NCBI RefSeq assembly: GCF_000702945.1
Contig: NZ_JNLE01000005.1
Location: 1,488,001 to 1,552,000, forward strand
DNA from: Clostridium sp. KNHs205
GTDB taxonomy: Bacteria; Bacillota; Clostridia; Lachnospirales; Lachnospiraceae
DNA length: 64,000 nucleotides
Direction of reading: 5' to 3'
Shown here: piece after piece, positions 3,150 to 9,801 of the stretch
Layout: every line of letters starts with the position of its first letter
How positions within the stretch are numbered: position 1 is the stretch's first letter
The notes under the pieces: model-generated
The model's database searches: none
What the model saw: only the letters and a program-made list of their open reading frames with translations
What the model was told of the DNA's origin: nothing
Translations under genes and position numbers: made by a program

Positions 3150-4055
3150 ATGAACTTAAAAAAATTCAAATCTGTATATGGAAATGATCAAATCTTGGAG
3201 GAAAACTTTGTAACATTTAGGATTTGGGCTGAAAATACCTATATTTCATTTAAAAAATATTTCGATATACAAAAAGCGGAGTTACAACAGTTTTCATCTC
3301 CTAATGAAGATTTTAACTTCTCAGACTCCTACCAAGAATTTATCCAGGAATGGGATTATATATCTATATTCAATATAATTAATGTGTATAGTGAAATGAA
3401 TTGGCCACTTGATGAAAAACACTCATCACAATCAGTTCAATTCTACCCAGAGCATGATGCATTTGGATATCAAACCTACTTTTCTGATATATATCAAAAA
3501 GTCCAAGGAATCAAAGATAATATTGAATTCTTTTATGCATTAATAATATTAATTGATGGAATACAAAAAAATACTCCTCTTTATGCACACTATGCATCTA
3601 TAATATATAAAGGTGTAAAAAAATATGAATTAAGTAGTGCAAGAGTAGTTTTAGAAACTAAGGAAACTAAAAAGGTATTTGTTGCTATGAGTTTTGATAA
3701 AAAATTAAAAACTGCAAGATCAAATATCGAAAAAGCAATCAAAGATACTGGATATACTCCTATACTTATTGATGTTAAAGAACACAATAATCAAATTGTA
3801 CCAGAAATCTTTAAAGAAATATCAGATAGTCATTTTATAATTGCCGATTTAACAGGGCAAAGAGGTGGTGTATATTTTGAAGCTGGTTATGCTCTAGCTA
3901 ATAATAAGCCTTTAATTCTTTCATGCGCACAAACCGAATTTAAAAAAGTGCATTTTGATGTTGCACAAATCAACACTATCTTTTGGGAAGATGAATATGA
4001 TCTATATGAAAGATTAAAGGCACGCATTGATTCAACAATTGGCAATGCTATATAA
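3150..4055 (+). CDS. Nucleoside 2-deoxyribosyltransferase/TIR-like domain protein
   Basis: A 301-residue soluble protein. The N-terminal part, about residues 1-165, is unrecognised and looks helical. The C-terminal 130 residues have the signature of the nucleoside deoxyribosyltransferase-like fold: KKVFVAMSF at 174-182, then IIADLTGQRGGVYFEAGYA at about 230-248, followed by NNKPLIL. In that family the Asp of ADLTG and the Glu of FEAGYA line the nucleotide pocket. Related TIR/NDT-like domains act as NAD or nucleotide hydrolysing effectors in phage defence, but metabolic members exist too. Its position as a lone AT-rich gene between att-like repeats makes an effector role more attractive than purine salvage. 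The start has AAGGA upstream (AATGGAAGGATAACAATT). Confidence 0.65.
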   Translation: MNLKKFKSVYGNDQILEENFVTFRIWAENTYISFKKYFDIQKAELQQFSSPNEDFNFSDSYQEFIQEWDYISIFNIINVYSEMNWPLDEKHSSQSVQFYPEHDAFGYQTYFSDIYQKVQGIKDNIEFFYALIILIDGIQKNTPLYAHYASIIYKGVKKYELSSARVVLETKETKKVFVAMSFDKKLKTARSNIEKAIKDTGYTPILIDVKEHNNQIVPEIFKEISDSHFIIADLTGQRGGVYFEAGYALANNKPLILSCAQTEFKKVHFDVAQINTIFWEDEYDLYERLKARIDSTIGNAI

Positions 4056-4112: not shown

Positions 4113-4149
4113 AACGCTACAACCCTTCATTTTACTGGGTTGTAGCGTT
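4113..4149. terminator. Strong hairpin, likely bidirectional terminator
   Basis: AACGCTACAACCC (4113-4125) pairs perfectly with GGGTTGTAGCGTT (4137-4149). The minus strand side is followed by a run of eight T. It would stop transcripts from the left-pointing DUF262 operon and possibly the right-pointing gene ending at 4055. Confidence 0.65.
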
Positions 4150-4404: not shown

Positions 4405-5631
4405 TTAAGACGCACCATTTTCATTTTTCTCTAAAATTGAAATAATATCCGTCGATATATTATTTCTAAATTTCAAAGCATTAAATGACCTATTAAACAC
4501 CTTGTTTTTCTTATATAAATAGGACATAAGATTTCTCATATTTGTACTTGACGCATTGTACGTATCATCTCCTAATGGACTATTTTCCATAATCGTTTTT
4601 ATGTCTTCAAGCAATAATGGATGATTCAAATCTACATCAAAGTAATAAAATATCGTGGCTAGAACCATAGATACACCTGTATGGAACTTAGTTGAGCGCT
4701 TGTCTTCTCCCTTAAAAATTGCAATAGAAAACGGATATTCTACTGCCTCTGCTAACTTCAACATAAAAAAGTTAAATTTATTAAATTCATTTTTTATTGC
4801 TTGGAGTGTTTCGCTCCCTGTTTTGTATGCATTTGAACGTTCCTCAAGATATTTATTTGCAATCTCAACTCCATCTTTATACATTACATTTGGTCCATTA
4901 TTTATGATGCTTAAAATTATACATAGTTCCTGATGATTTCTTTGTTTATTTTTTCTATCACTTGTAACATTATATATTTTTATAAGCTGTGCGGACATAT
5001 CTGCTTTTTCAATATTTTCAATATTGTGGTTCAGAAAATTAGTAATATAAAGACTAGTAGATGAATAAAAGGTCGCCATTGACATTTCATGTCTTTCAAG
5101 AGGCTTAGTATTTCGATTATATCTTTTAAATAACTCAATCTCCATGTCATCACTCGAAAATGACTCAAACTCTAATACAGAAAGATGACTTCCAAGAATT
5201 TTAAATTTTATTTCTTTATCAAGTTGAGAAAATCTCTTATTTTTAAATTTTTCATTATCTTTTAAAAGTTCTAAGTCAGTAAGAGAAAATTTATCCTTTA
5301 TAAACCTATAAATAGCAGTCAATCTATGTTGTCCATCCATAACATGTCTTAGCTGAATCCCATCGTTTCCAGTTCTAACCAAAAATATTTCAGGAATAGG
5401 AATTCCTACTATAATTGACTCAATTATTGAGCTTTCTTCCTTTGCTTTTGATCGGTATTCTCTTTGATAATCTGGACTTAAAATAATCCCCTGCAAGAAT
5501 TCCAGTTGATCTTCCTCACTTAATTCTTCACTAGCTTTCTTTAGATATCTTTCACCTTTATCTATAAAATTAACCATGTCCTGAATGGATATAAGTGGTC
5601 TAGTATACTCTACTTTTAACGGTAATTCCAT
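4405..5631 (-). CDS. DUF262 (GmrS/ParB-like) domain protein
   Basis: A 408-residue protein starting at an ATG at 5631 preceded by AAGGAGACCGTAATA. DUF262 hallmarks are present: SPDYQREYR (52-60) corresponds to the P-x-YQR motif, and VMDGQHRLTAIYRF (97-110) is the DGQHR nucleotide-binding motif shared with ParB-fold nucleases. In GmrSD type IV restriction enzymes DUF262 is the NTP-dependent half and is fused to a DUF1524 HNH nuclease. I see no H-N-H motif in the C-terminal 250 residues, so the partner nuclease function is missing or supplied elsewhere. The gene begins 16 bases after the end of the FRG-domain gene, so the two are very likely cotranscribed. A role in phage or plasmid defence is inferred from the domain and island location. 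Confidence 0.75.
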   Translation of the reverse strand: MELPLKVEYTRPLISIQDMVNFIDKGERYLKKASEELSEEDQLEFLQGIILSPDYQREYRSKAKEESSIIESIIVGIPIPEIFLVRTGNDGIQLRHVMDGQHRLTAIYRFIKDKFSLTDLELLKDNEKFKNKRFSQLDKEIKFKILGSHLSVLEFESFSSDDMEIELFKRYNRNTKPLERHEMSMATFYSSTSLYITNFLNHNIENIEKADMSAQLIKIYNVTSDRKNKQRNHQELCIILSIINNGPNVMYKDGVEIANKYLEERSNAYKTGSETLQAIKNEFNKFNFFMLKLAEAVEYPFSIAIFKGEDKRSTKFHTGVSMVLATIFYYFDVDLNHPLLLEDIKTIMENSPLGDDTYNASSTNMRNLMSYLYKKNKVFNRSFNALKFRNNISTDIISILEKNENGAS

Positions 5632-5647
5632 TATTACGGTCTCCTTC

Positions 5648-6823
5648 CTACATATGTTCTTTAATAAATCGAATAGTTTTAACCATATTATCTTTATCTG
5701 GATATATATTTTCAAATGTTATACCTAATTTAAACAGCTCTTTTAATATATCTTCTTTGCAATTCTTATCAATTACAGCTATTTTGGTATAGTTCGACAG
5801 CATTGCATCCAATGAGTCGCTTGCTTCCACCTTTAAAAAACAACCTTTTTGAAAATGTATCCGTTCATTACAATTTCCCACACGAACAAAGTATGATTTA
5901 TCAGAATATTCTCGCTGTAAAGCCATTTTTAATTCATTATCTGAAAAATCAACAAGTTTTCGTTCTGACTTTATTGTACTTTTGTTATGCGATAGAGCAT
6001 CGACAAAATAAACTATAGAATGATTATCTATATAGTCATATTCTTCCACTGCAAAAAGTAGGGATATCAGATGGGCTTCTGTAAAATCTAAATAATTAGT
6101 TGGTAAGCCAAAGTGCTGACCATATGCTCTCAATTCTTCATTGTTCTTTTTTTCTGTTTTATCATCATAATATAGTACACGTTGCTTAAATGTTGATTCA
6201 TATTGAGACAAATGTCCTATGTAACCATCTTTGTATAACCTATGCAGAGATGGTTCTAATTTATATGTACAATCCTTCTGGCCTCTCGATACATAATTAT
6301 TTTCTTCAAACGTACTTATAAACTCAATATATGCACCTACGCTATCAATAAAAATTATGTTATCTAAGGGAACCCCTAGTTTTTTTGATAACGTTTCCAC
6401 AACATTATCATCGCCCCATTTTTTAATGTCTGAAATTCTACTTTTGATCATACTTTCTTCCGAAAAATCATATTTAATTTGAAGAATATTGTCTTGTATT
6501 TCAACCTCATCTGGCTCAAGGATTTTAGAAAATAATGAGTATACCATTTTTTTATCATTATCAATTATTTCTGCTTCAACGTCACCCTGAATAATTTCTA
6601 TTGACTGTTCGATTTTTATTTTTTGAAAGACGTTGAAGAGAATTTTTTGCTTTTCTTCTTCATTTTCATTTTTTTTAATAAATTCATCAATTTCTTGATC
6701 TGTCTTTTCTAACTTTTCAATTGATTTAAAGTCTCTGATTTCAGGTTTTTGTAATATTTCATCAACATCATTTGTATTATTCATGATAACGGATACTATT
6801 TTATACAAATCATCTAATACCAC
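5648..6823 (-). CDS. FRG-domain protein
   Basis: A 391-residue protein with a GTG start at 6823 placed eight bases after AGGAGG. The C-terminal half carries the FRG domain: YVSRGQ (177-182), LEPSLHR (189-195) and YGQHFGLPTNYLDFT (234-248), the Arg-Gly-Gln and QHxGLPTxLLDxT signatures. The first 160 residues are acidic, charged and unrecognised, and may be a sensing or interaction region. The FRG domain occurs mostly in poorly characterised proteins of phages and genomic islands; its biochemistry is not established to my knowledge. The gene is first in a two-gene operon with DUF262. Lys-, Asp- and Ile-rich composition matches the rest of the island rather than the core genome. Confidence 0.75.
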   Translation of the reverse strand: MVLDDLYKIVSVIMNNTNDVDEILQKPEIRDFKSIEKLEKTDQEIDEFIKKNENEEEKQKILFNVFQKIKIEQSIEIIQGDVEAEIIDNDKKMVYSLFSKILEPDEVEIQDNILQIKYDFSEESMIKSRISDIKKWGDDNVVETLSKKLGVPLDNIIFIDSVGAYIEFISTFEENNYVSRGQKDCTYKLEPSLHRLYKDGYIGHLSQYESTFKQRVLYYDDKTEKKNNEELRAYGQHFGLPTNYLDFTEAHLISLLFAVEEYDYIDNHSIVYFVDALSHNKSTIKSERKLVDFSDNELKMALQREYSDKSYFVRVGNCNERIHFQKGCFLKVEASDSLDAMLSNYTKIAVIDKNCKEDILKELFKLGITFENIYPDKDNMVKTIRFIKEHM

Positions 6824-6920
6824 CTATATTTCCTCCTATCGTATTTTATCAGCATATATTTCCATATGTTTTTATCAATAATCTTTGCTCTTTTCATAAA
6901 CTTGTTGTAAGTCTTTCCAA

Positions 6921-6976: not shown

Positions 6977-7987
6977 TCACCTTTCCTGTATTATCCAACG
7001 ACCATTTCTGTTTGATCCATACCGTTTGATTTTTTTATCATCTTTCAACTTCTTAATGTTATATTTTACTTGATTTGAAGTCCAACCTAATGCTTCCTGT
7101 ATCTCAATTGTTTTTATTTGAGGTTTTTCACTTAGTAATAATAATAATGCTTCTTCTGCACTGCTATCATTTTGACTTTTATGACCAGATACCTTTCCAT
7201 CATTTATACTACTTGCATCGTAGGTTTCACCATTATTAAAAGTAATGGTTCTATCTGTGGCGATAATCTCACTCATATAGTCAAGCAAAGCATCTACCAT
7301 TGCACCATCTCCATCAAAAACCAAAGTTTCGTAACTGATTAGATATTTCAGTTCCTCTATGACACGTGCTTTGATTTCATATTGTGATAACTGGCACTCC
7401 CTACATTCTTGTAATAGATGGTGATAAGATAAGATTTGACACAGCTCACAATATTCAAACCTTTCTATCAGCTCTTGCATTGGAACCAGACTTTTTGATA
7501 TCGTAGGTCTTACTTCCATCTCTCCATCCTTCCTCTGAAAGATTGATTGATGATTATTTACTCTTTTGTTATTTACTTTGTTATTAATTACTTGTGTTGG
7601 ATGTTCCGTATGCGGTATGCCCGTAATCGAAGGAACCGTTTTCGATTTCTCCGTGAACGGATTTACCGTAATCGGATTTTCCAATTGCGGTGGAACTGGT
7701 ACCTGATGCACTTCAATCACATTTTTACCAAAGCGCCCTCTCCCAGTTCTCTCTTGTCCACCAGTCAGATATCCTCTTTTCATTAATTCATTCACACTAG
7801 AACGGATACAATCTACTCCGTCTGGTAGAATTTTTGAAAAGCCTTTCAAATTAAAATCCCAATTGTCTGATAGGGACAATATCGTTACCAGCATTCCTCG
7901 ATCTCTCAAACTAAGCTTTTTATCAAGTAAAATATCTTTGCTTACATTCACATATAGTCCCTGGGTTTTATTCTTTAAAACTGCCAA
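6977..7987 (-). CDS. Replication initiator-like protein (RepA_N/DUF6017 type)
   Basis: A 336-residue protein with a TTG start (7987) behind AAAGGAG. The N-terminal 100 residues are a winged-helix domain typical of RepA/DnaD-like initiators of Firmicute plasmids and integrative elements (LSLRDRGMLVTILSLSDNW, then SSVNELMKRGYL). A polar linker follows (about 100-165). The segment from about 170 to 260 (ELIERFEYCELCQILSYHHL ... ATDRTITFNNGETYDASSI) resembles DUF6017, found at the end of such proteins. The last 60 residues form an additional winged helix (TIEIQEALGWTSNQVKYNIK). The TTG start and the antisense RNA candidate in its leader suggest tight dosage control. It argues that this island comes from an ICE or plasmid-like element. 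Confidence 0.7.
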   Translation of the reverse strand: MAVLKNKTQGLYVNVSKDILLDKKLSLRDRGMLVTILSLSDNWDFNLKGFSKILPDGVDCIRSSVNELMKRGYLTGGQERTGRGRFGKNVIEVHQVPVPPQLENPITVNPFTEKSKTVPSITGIPHTEHPTQVINNKVNNKRVNNHQSIFQRKDGEMEVRPTISKSLVPMQELIERFEYCELCQILSYHHLLQECRECQLSQYEIKARVIEELKYLISYETLVFDGDGAMVDALLDYMSEIIATDRTITFNNGETYDASSINDGKVSGHKSQNDSSAEEALLLLLSEKPQIKTIEIQEALGWTSNQVKYNIKKLKDDKKIKRYGSNRNGRWIIQER

Positions 7988-8004
7988 AAAATCACTCCTT
8001 TCAA

Positions 8005-8033
8005 TTGAAAAGGGGCGGCGACTATGCTAGAAT
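8005..8033 (+). promoter_or_regulatory. Promoter for candidate antisense RNA
   Basis: TTGAAA (8005-8010), a 17-base spacer, TAGAAT (8028-8033). It points rightward, against the rep gene leader, and no protein gene lies on this strand until 8500. Confidence 0.55.
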
Positions 8034-8039
8034 ACATTT

Positions 8040-8101
8040 ATATGTAACGTACATGCATAGTCATGTGCCCAAGCTCCTGCGCCAACAGGAGCTTTTTCTT
8101 T
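8040..8101 (+). ncRNA. Candidate antisense RNA controlling the rep gene
   Basis: A transcript from the promoter at 8005-8033 would be about 60 bases and end at a strong terminator: AAGCTCCTG (8071-8079) pairs with CAGGAGCTT (8086-8094), loop CGCCAA, then TTTCTTTT. It is fully complementary to the untranslated leader of the minus-strand rep mRNA that starts at 7987. In the mRNA the loop reads UUGGCG, which contains a YUNR (UUGG) U-turn motif common in antisense recognition loops of plasmid copy-control systems. No coding potential was seen. Existence of the RNA is inference. Confidence 0.55.
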
Positions 8102-8121
8102 TCTCTAAACTTCATCATCAG

Positions 8122-8313
8122 TTACCTCTTCATACATGCTTCTTCGTAGTAGATACGGTTGATTTTCCCACTCATTACAAGCAATTTCGGATTTTCTTTT
8201 TTCATTCGTTCCGATAATTCCTTAATAATGGCGTATCCTTTGCTTCGGCAAACTCCCCAATCAGCACATACCTCGTTTACATCTACATAAACTGGTTTTT
8301 CCATCACTTCCAT
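8122..8313 (-). CDS. Excisionase-like small DNA-binding protein
   Basis: A 63-residue basic protein with a clear RBS (GAGGAGAGAAACGT before ATG). The sequence VDVNEVCADWGVCRSKGYAI reads as a winged-helix HTH of the MerR/excisionase superfamily, followed by a C-terminal RIYYEEACMKR. Proteins of this size and layout sit beside replication and regulator genes in Firmicute integrative elements and serve as Xis or as regulators. It lies upstream of rep on the same strand and diverges from the XRE regulator at 8500, so both may share the operator region 8340-8435. No integrase partner is present in the window. Confidence 0.6.
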   Translation of the reverse strand: MEVMEKPVYVDVNEVCADWGVCRSKGYAIIKELSERMKKENPKLLVMSGKINRIYYEEACMKR

Positions 8314-8379
8314 ACGTTTCTCTCCTCTCGTGTAATATTTGGAATAGAAATAAATTTATTACTATCTTGATTTTATTAT

Positions 8380-8401
8380 ACAGAAATATATTTATTTCTG
8401 T
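8380..8401. promoter_or_regulatory. Palindromic operator between divergent regulators
   Basis: Arms ACAGAAATA (8380-8388) and TATTTCTGT (8393-8401) flank TATT. Half-sites recur at 8346-8352 (AGAAATA) and 8425-8433 (TATTTCTGT). The position between the excisionase-like gene and the XRE gene is that of an autoregulated lysogeny-type switch. The same 9-base half-site occurs at 2560-2568 upstream of the decayed regulator. Confidence 0.6.
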
Positions 8402-8499
8402 CAAGTACAAATTAGAAAGATTTTTATTTCTGTTCTTTCTATTTTTTCTATTCTATGATAAAATGGGTTCATCATTAAGAAAATGAGGTGATTTTTGAG

Positions 8500-9441
8500 A
8501 TGTCAGTTGGACACAAAATAAGAGCCATACGTGATCTAAGAAGTATGACTCAAAAAGAACTTGGTATCAAAGCTGGATTTTCAGCAGCTACTGCCGATGT
8601 TCGAATACGACAGTATGAAAGTCATAAAATGATTCCAAAAGAAGATAAGTTAAAAGAGATTGCAGCCGCTCTTGATGTAGATGTAAGTGCATTAAAAGAT
8701 CATGATATCTATTCTGATCTAGATCTGATGCAGATCTTATTTGAATTAGAGGAAAATCACGGACTGGTAATAGAAAAAGAAGCTGGTCGGTATGTATTGT
8801 CATTTGACGAGTCACATCCATTGTTTCGATACACCAATTATAAGCTCGACAGCTGGTACCGAGCCAAATCACAACTTCTATCCAATTCAGAAGATTCGGG
8901 ATATGATGATAAAGAATATTTACTTTGGAAATACAGATTCCCACTTGATACTATGGAAATAGAGAAAACGAATGCGGCTAAAGTACAGGAAAAATACAAG
9001 CCATTTGTGAATAACACCTATAGTATAAAAAAGGTTAATGAATTCATTCTTTTATTTGAGAGATTAATTAGAAGTGGATTTGATATACAGATTGCATCAG
9101 CTCCTGAAAGATCTGGTATCGGAACCTTTGTTTGCTGTGCTATATTTAAACATTCAGAATTATTAGAAGCTACTGGCGAAGCCGCCAATGCTTATGCAGA
9201 GTATCTTTCCATGGTAAGTTATCTGGAGAAGTCAGGAATTGAGATTGAACGAGAGACGAACTCGTTTGATGGTGAAACCTTGTTAGGGGTTTACTTTTAT
9301 AGTTCTGTATTGTCCACTGCGCTGAATCATACGGTACGAGAAATAATTAAGGCTTACAAAGAAGGTATGTTGGATGATAAGATTATGCAGATACAGTATA
9401 AGGATTCGTTGCAGACATTTAATGTACCGATCAAAGATTAA
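8500..9441 (+). CDS. XRE-family transcriptional regulator of the integrative element
   Basis: A 313-residue protein. I chose the ATG at 8500 because GAGGTG lies nine bases upstream; a GTG at 8488 would overlap that RBS. Residues about 5-65 are a Cro/C1 HTH (KIRAIRDLRSMTQKELGIKA, then RIRQYESHKMIPKEDKLKEI). The long C-terminal part (70-313) lacks an ImmA protease motif and is of unknown function; it may sense a ligand or oligomerise. It is divergent from the excisionase-like gene across an AT-rich region with operator palindromes and probably represses both directions. A degraded gene with a similar layout is found at 2651-3071. Confidence 0.75.
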   Translation: MSVGHKIRAIRDLRSMTQKELGIKAGFSAATADVRIRQYESHKMIPKEDKLKEIAAALDVDVSALKDHDIYSDLDLMQILFELEENHGLVIEKEAGRYVLSFDESHPLFRYTNYKLDSWYRAKSQLLSNSEDSGYDDKEYLLWKYRFPLDTMEIEKTNAAKVQEKYKPFVNNTYSIKKVNEFILLFERLIRSGFDIQIASAPERSGIGTFVCCAIFKHSELLEATGEAANAYAEYLSMVSYLEKSGIEIERETNSFDGETLLGVYFYSSVLSTALNHTVREIIKAYKEGMLDDKIMQIQYKDSLQTFNVPIKD

Positions 9442-9499
9442 TAATGTACGTTTTCGCATTATTAATCAAATATTAATTATACTAAGGAGCTAACTTACA

Positions 9500-9801
9500 A
9501 TGGATGTAAATAGAATTTTAATTTCTTCTGTGCAGATAAAAAATTTTAGATCTATTAGAAACGAAACTTTAAAAGTCAATAATTTTAATATTTTTGTTGG
9601 TTTAAATGATGCAGGAAAATCTAACTTTTTAAAACCACTTAATCTATTTTTTAATAATCAAACAGATTACAATACTCCGTTTAATTTCTCGATAGATTTT
9701 TCATTTTTATTTCCAAAAAAGGACATAACACTCGTGAAATTAAGATTATAATAAAGTTCATCGTTCCAGAAGGCTATAAAGGATCCAGATTAATAACTTG
9801 A
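9500..9801 (+). pseudogene. Truncated OLD/RecF-like AAA ATPase
   Basis: The N-terminus is that of an OLD-family or AAA_15/21 ATPase: VQIKNFRSIRNETL, then the Walker A FVGLNDAGKSN followed by FLKPLNLFF. The frame stops at 9751, but after a run of six A at 9715-9720 another frame continues plausibly as REIKIIIKFIVPEGYKGS before a stop at 9801. Intact relatives are hundreds of residues longer, so the remaining ATPase and Toprim parts are lost. The break coincides with the hairpin and att-like repeat at 9821-9872, so the gene seems to have been cut by an element junction. Such ATPases are frequent in defence loci (OLD, Gabija GajA). RBS AAGGAG lies before the ATG. Confidence 0.7.

Follow-up and report, generated by a model that had tools for sequence, protein, structure and literature searches.

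The window analysed here is a 64,000-nucleotide stretch of Clostridium sp. KNHs205 (contig NZ_JNLE01000005.1, positions 1,488,001 to 1,552,000). On its − strand, a gene for an FRG-domain protein (5648..6823, 391 aa, GTG start at 6823) is followed after 16 nt by a gene for a stand-alone DUF262 protein (4405..5631, 408 aa, ATG start). Our results indicate that this pair is a real, conserved and mobile two-gene module with a plausible role in defence. The two genes are tightly spaced, their core motifs are intact, no nuclease domain is found in the DUF262 half by Pfam and the pairing has a repeated origin. From the sequences and by analogy with known systems, we assign a probability of about 0.55 to the reading that the pair is one mobile defence module, in which DUF262 would be the sensor and FRG an ADP-ribosyltransferase (ART)-like effector that would consume NAD+.

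The FRG–DUF262 pair recurs in two separate clades

A genome scan with the window DUF262 protein returned four loci, all from Lachnospiraceae and 75-80% identical to it. An FRG gene lies directly upstream in all four (L024 to L027), its product being 61-71% identical to that of the window and the gap, counted from the aligned start, being 12-13 nt. The surroundings differ from locus to locus: L024 lies near a DUF1016/YhcG PD-(D/E)XK gene and an integrase, L025 near a C5-methyltransferase, an HpaII-type restriction gene and an AbiJ_NTD4 gene, and L026 near another C5-methyltransferase, so that the pair moves as a unit. Moreover, profiles of the DUF262 and FRG proteins of this group (clade I) matched the same three of 358 genomes of the window's family, presumably Lachnospiraceae, with the genes adjacent in all three. 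The chance of picking the same three is 1.3e-7 if genomes are taken as independent, which relatives are not. The two genomes other than the window's may be those of L025 and L027.

The second group (clade II) came from viral contigs, which we scanned with a pattern derived from an alignment of diverse FRG proteins, taking the best 80 of 100 relatives. A DUF262 gene lay directly downstream of FRG in four of these 80, and the four DUF262 proteins, together with one from a Hymenobacter plasmid (L143), were the seeds of the next scan. This yielded 19 viral DUF262 loci, 15 of them with FRG directly upstream, four of which were the seeds' own contigs. Among the non-seed loci the pair was thus present in 11 of 15, the four misses being the four weakest matches; one further pair is that of the Hymenobacter plasmid. 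The DUF262 proteins of L160 and L161 are identical. A DUF262 start codon falls between −4 and +16 nt from the FRG stop in 20 of 20 loci, several of which have other candidate starts (the annotated one of L143 is at +47). Integrases adjoin L024, L142, L153 and L160, and phage genes adjoin L155 and L158; besides integrases, portal and terminase genes adjoin several paired loci, neighbours that fit with prophages. Viral scans with alignments A1 and A2, or with a SIR2-linked DUF262 protein, found nothing, and a search of E. coli genomes for the L121 pair likewise gave no match.

A chance neighbourhood was rejected on three counts (4/4 clade I relatives, 11/15 non-seed clade II loci, the same 3/358 genomes). 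An earlier note on this DNA, made from the letters alone, had proposed the two genes as a candidate defence system and suggested looking for their co-occurrence across genomes; the neighbourhood proved to be conserved in both clades.

When 48 DUF262 proteins are placed in a tree, clade I (5 rows; Shimodaira-Hasegawa-like approximate likelihood ratio test, SH-aLRT, 100) and clade II (16 rows, two of them identical; SH-aLRT 99) each form a single group, and the two are set apart. The approximately unbiased (AU) test rejected a single group of all 21 paired rows in this tree (p 3.3e-4) and a single pairing group in the FRG tree of 126 rows (p 0.0075); we thus discarded one ancient pair. Both trees are quick searches with SH-aLRT support only and with long branches flagged. 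Within the FRG tree, clade II itself requires four changes, two of them forced by starred branches, and some reshuffling of partners is possible there. Judged from these sequences, the pairing appears to have arisen at least twice, in two separate clades, and such repetition supports a functional link better than one inherited arrangement would.

No nuclease domain is detected in the DUF262 protein

The DUF262 domain (Pfam GmrSD_N, PF03235; E 1.8e-17, 64.6 bits against a cut-off of 33.2) spans residues 49-188 (5068..5487, − strand) and contains the motifs DGQHR (99-103) and F168-x-R170-x-N172. D99, G100, R103, F168 and N172 are invariant across 19 aligned rows. A profile that includes the window protein matched the solved DUF262 proteins 7p9k (E 1.4e-8), 20yv (2.6e-8) and, far more weakly, SspE 6jiv (0.007). 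The best PADLOC model of the window protein itself was NsnA (1.2e-27), followed by REase_II (8.6e-9) and PD-T4-2_A (3.7e-7).

At E 0.1, Pfam matched no DUF1524 or HNH domain in this protein or in the eight further proteins from 1.6 to 9.8 kb of the window that were included in the scan. The scan was able to detect HNH, since a like scan of ten other DUF262 proteins scored it in three (L014, L020 and L144). Five other paired DUF262 proteins (of 20) were scanned with the same negative outcome. The earlier note had described the DUF1524 nuclease as absent and had pointed to the C-terminal part of the DUF262 protein as the place where a nuclease motif might hide; Pfam finds none there.

The FRG protein keeps the conserved residues of its family

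The FRG domain (PF08867; E 1.1e-14, 55.5 bits against a cut-off of 25) covers residues 176-263 (6035..6298, − strand), a core that holds R180, G181, Q236, H237, T242 and D246; R321, Q325 and F329 lie past the stretch covered by Pfam. We counted conservation on 54 rows not retrieved by a motif pattern. Viral rows were excluded because their retrieval with a QH-x-G-x-PT pattern makes the count circular, and a count over 126 rows was set aside as partly circular, given its pattern-fetched viral rows and the dropping of 8 of 139 rows without a similar motif. In the 54-row count F257 is kept in 54/54, R180 and G181 in 53/53, and D246 and Q325 in 53/54; T242 is kept in 52 rows, Q236 and R195 in 51 and H237 in 50; R321 and F329 are kept in 49/53 and L363 in 50/52. 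The window protein carries all of them. At position 243 it has N, as do 8/54 rows, R being found in 42/54. With these residues and both DUF262 motifs intact, neither half of the pair looks dead.

An N-terminal extension (residues 1-155; 6359..6823, − strand) was delimited in the alignments of the two clades: 5/5 clade I members have it and 0/5 aligned clade II members (273-287 aa). Its first 70 residues are modelled as helical (block predicted local distance difference test, pLDDT, 77-89), and a fold comparison of this part gave no significant match. A sequence search of the PDB with FRG alignment A3 returned nothing, and one with A6 returned one insignificant match, OocQ (E 0.073).

In PADLOC, with a limit of E 0.1, the window FRG protein matched no models other than PDC-S15, the best at 4.6e-31, and all four FRG proteins scanned match this candidate family (4.6e-31 to 2.8e-55). 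PDC-S15 is a name that we take to denote a single-gene candidate, whereas the FRG gene of the window belongs to a conserved pair. The same genome has a second FRG gene (L169:4532-5860; G000:C5, about 547-548 kb), which has no DUF262 match nearby and adjoins a gene whose product has an Arr-ms (rifampin ADP-ribosyltransferase) domain.

Related DUF262 proteins have other partners

Three loci group with clade II at SH-aLRT 98. L144 is a DUF262-HNH fusion encoded between DNA methyltransferase and type III-like helicase genes. L145:2858-5855 and L146:3983-5885 lie on a Hymenobacter and a Sinorhizobium plasmid, and in both the DUF262 gene is followed at a distance of 1 nt by a SIR2_2 gene, a possible DUF262-SIR2 defence pair that is preceded in L145 by a PAPS-reductase-like gene. 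The SIR2 protein of L145 matches the PADLOC model of ThsA (E 1.6e-31), a protein that degrades NAD+. Since these sisters carry a fused HNH or an adjoining SIR2, the effector slot looks exchangeable, and FRG sits in the same place.

Farther in the tree, L014 and L020 are DUF262-HNH proteins with an EcoRI-type (adenine) methylase. All three HNH fusions (L014, L020, L144) stand beside EcoRI-type or N6/N4 DNA methyltransferases and are apparently restriction-modification systems based on DUF262. The DUF262 reader is alike in the window pair, and some clade II pairs adjoin a C5-methyltransferase; L014 and L020 differ in having HNH where the window has FRG, and adenine methyltransferases of the EcoRI type where the window has no C5-methyltransferase. 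L017 adjoins a BsuBI/PstI-type restriction endonuclease gene, L018 an AAA_14/DUF4143 ATPase and L010 a polysaccharide deacetylase; of the 10 neighbouring proteins scanned at 9 loci with an unpaired DUF262 gene, five had no domain match or only weak ones.

Of the four clade I relatives, the three whose neighbours were scanned (L024, L025 and L026) all stand beside a gene for a PD-(D/E)XK nuclease, a restriction enzyme or a C5-methyltransferase. For clade II we searched viral records with Pfam PF00145, using 50 of 76 FRG-only records as control and mapping distances by hand. A C5-methyltransferase lies within 4 kb in 6/14 clade II records versus 3/50 controls (p 0.0023), and anywhere in the record in 6/14 versus 6/50 (p 0.017); four of the six linked records belong to one subclade. 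None was found on the Hymenobacter plasmid record (L143) or in the window. An earlier count of 8/19 versus 2/76 was discarded as biased, its profile having been built from the pair loci themselves. Any enrichment near defence genes, which the earlier note had suggested looking for, is moderate.

A restriction-modification scheme in which the effector kills the cell instead of cutting DNA could fit the methyltransferase link, against which stand the concentration of that link in one subclade and the lack of a C5-methyltransferase on the Hymenobacter plasmid and in the window. In such a scheme, which we regard as unlikely, the methyltransferase would mark self, DUF262 would read a missing or wrong mark and FRG would destroy NAD+. 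DUF262 would then be a common reader into which HNH nucleases, SIR2 NADases and FRG enzymes have been plugged repeatedly, and the methyltransferase part of the window's system would be missing or encoded elsewhere.

Comparison with known systems

The DUF262 half of GmrSD, BrxU and SspE has the DGQxR nucleotide-binding motif, as has the window protein; those systems have DUF1524, in contrast to the window pair, which has a separate FRG gene instead. DUF262 is described as an NTPase; in SspE it turns DUF1524 on when it senses modified DNA, and DUF262 genes are required for defence in Menshen and Dazbog, both without DUF1524 (PMC10952713, consulted, like the other articles cited here, as excerpts). 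The excerpt leaves open the role of DUF262 with partners other than DUF1524. The Menshen protein NsnA lacks DUF1524, as here, and of all PADLOC models its own scores best against the window protein, but its partner is the OLD-type nuclease NsnB and not FRG. An intact NsnB-like ATPase was absent from nine window proteins scanned with 95 PADLOC models; the NsnB model matched only a truncated ATPase fragment of 83 aa (1.4e-10). PD-T4-2 and Dazbog also have a DUF262 gene without DUF1524, and the PD-T4-2_A model matches three clade II DUF262 proteins (1.5e-12 to 3.3e-18). The window FRG protein matched PDC-S15 models only, in a scan that involved no direct comparison with a partner protein of PD-T4-2 or of Dazbog, the latter being taken from its description in PMC10952713.

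The earlier note had credited FRG with no known activity. This needs amending, since Frg has been assigned to the ADP-ribosyltransferase superfamily and named as a potential effector against viruses, perhaps an NADase (PMC9503650), an activity that is itself a suggestion. We found no article combining 'FRG domain' and 'DUF262' in the library searched, which left subscription papers, non-PMC preprints and supplements mostly uncovered, so that an earlier listing is possible.

A sensor–effector reading and its alternatives

Joining what these two articles say of FRG and of DUF262 leads to the proposal that DUF262 senses and FRG kills. The two proteins would be produced from a translationally coupled operon. 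The DGQxR nucleotide-binding half of DUF262 would read foreign or modified DNA and bind or hydrolyse NTP, as in GmrSD, BrxU and SspE, and would then switch on the separate FRG protein in place of a fused HNH/DUF1524 nuclease. FRG, being ADP-ribosyltransferase-like, would most likely consume NAD+ or put ADP-ribose on a target, and the infected cell would be stopped. We infer the defence role, the DNA sensing, the NAD chemistry and the direct contact of both proteins. The earlier idea of a nuclease-less DUF262 variant with FRG as its effector therefore stands as regards the conserved neighbourhood and the lack of a nuclease by Pfam, and its defence and enzymatic parts stay conjectural.

Several results weigh against this sensor–effector reading. 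The structure model of the FRG domain has a pLDDT below 50 over most of its length, which leaves the ART fold unconfirmed, and that of DUF262 is unusable (pLDDT 38). A profile comparison of FRG (131 rows) with RES (8 rows) and KptA (3 rows) by hhalign gave no signal; it is uninformative on the ART fold because the control, RES versus KptA, gave none either. At L028, on a Sarcina plasmid, the DUF262 gene is decayed and in pieces and the FRG profile found no FRG; we excluded this locus from the pair counts and the tree. In the broad families, the 391 genomes of the window's class include 36 with FRG, 113 with DUF262 and 17 with both, and among the matches listed the window's own pair alone is adjacent. 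Of 61 relatives, three have both families, together only in the window's genome. No DUF262 gene lies directly downstream in 76 of the best 80 of 100 viral FRG loci, which implies that FRG has other ways of working. FRG stands beside DUF262 in one of the seven plasmid records inspected (of 68), two phage DUF262 matches have no FRG alongside and two annotated FRG records have no DUF262. The L109 locus, with both genes 2.2 kb apart in reverse order, was counted as unpaired. From these listings, read by hand, we rejected a general association of the two families; the pairing is confined to certain clades.

Two coupled genes on mobile DNA, with integrases, phage genes, a plasmid (L143) and a replication-initiator-like neighbour, would also suit a toxin-antitoxin or addiction module, in which DUF262 would restrain a toxic FRG and the pair would mainly retain the mobile element. 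We hold this to be improbable. DUF262 retains the nucleotide-binding motif and, unlike a plain antitoxin, serves GmrSD, BrxU and SspE as sensor or NTPase; most of the viral FRG loci just mentioned (76 of 80) have no DUF262 directly downstream; and related DUF262 proteins have HNH or SIR2 partners. Slightly less probable still is an FRG effector without NAD+ chemistry, acting by nucleic-acid or protein modification or in a non-enzymatic role: the near-invariant R-G, T-x3-D and R-x3-Q over 54 diverse rows suit an enzyme, and sister DUF262 pairs employ SIR2 proteins, one of them matching the ThsA model. The least probable alternative is that DUF262 itself cuts DNA as a shortened GmrS-like restriction enzyme with FRG as an accessory, for although GmrS may combine NTPase and nuclease via a ParB/sulfiredoxin-like fold, C-terminal D-H-N motif mutants of Eco94GmrSD lost activity (PMC4619093), and HNH/DUF1524 is absent by Pfam from the window protein and five other paired ones, HNH being present in three unpaired ones.

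DUF262 is widespread (113/391 class genomes) and common to several defence systems. A pair that arose at least twice, next to sister HNH and SIR2 arrangements, makes it testable whether one DNA reader triggers unrelated killing enzymes. Under the sensor–effector reading FRG, whose NADase activity is a suggestion in print, would gain a defined partner and trigger.

Layout and surroundings of the pair in the window

Both genes are intact and each has a good ribosome-binding site (RBS): AGGAGG at 6832..6837 (− strand) for FRG, and AAGGAG at 5641-5646 for DUF262, within the 16-nt gap (5632..5647, − strand). Downstream lies a 13-bp hairpin with an 11-nt loop, followed by eight T on the − strand (4113..4149; fold z −7.3 on the + and −5.6 on the − strand), which is probably the terminator of the FRG-DUF262 operon. 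A terminator pattern scan, whose loop limit of 8 nt keeps this hairpin off its list, gave four sites versus 0.8 expected, every one within the two genes.

The GC content is 0.29-0.30 across 4-7 kb of the window; rightward, beyond 10 kb, it ranges from 0.28 to 0.46 in 1-kb segments and is mostly near 0.40. On the 5' side of the pair, the gene at 6977-7987 has matches to families of phage replication initiators, the best at E 3.8e-11. The earlier note's description of two genes 16 bases apart in an AT-rich island near a replication module was accurate.

Remnants of a mobile element occupy 6977-9751: the replication-initiator-like gene, an excisionase-like ORF (ICEBs1 excisionase match, E 9e-7, under the curated cut-off), an XRE-type repressor and an AAA_15/OLD-like ATPase reduced to an N-terminal fragment of 83 aa (9500-9751), which lies 2.7 kb from the FRG gene. 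No integrase was found among the nine window proteins scanned.

On the other side, a convergent gene (3150-4055, + strand, 301 aa) terminates next to the hairpin. The C-terminal half of its product resembles nucleoside deoxyribosyltransferase (2.9e-5) and DUF4062 (0.0018), both under the Pfam cut-offs, and the protein matches a PADLOC TIR effector model (6.8e-12). Proteins of the DUF4062 family have been reported to act in the defence system Swarozyc as NADases resembling TIR (PMC13174449), and by these matches the gene may encode a second candidate NAD-consuming protein, convergent to the pair.
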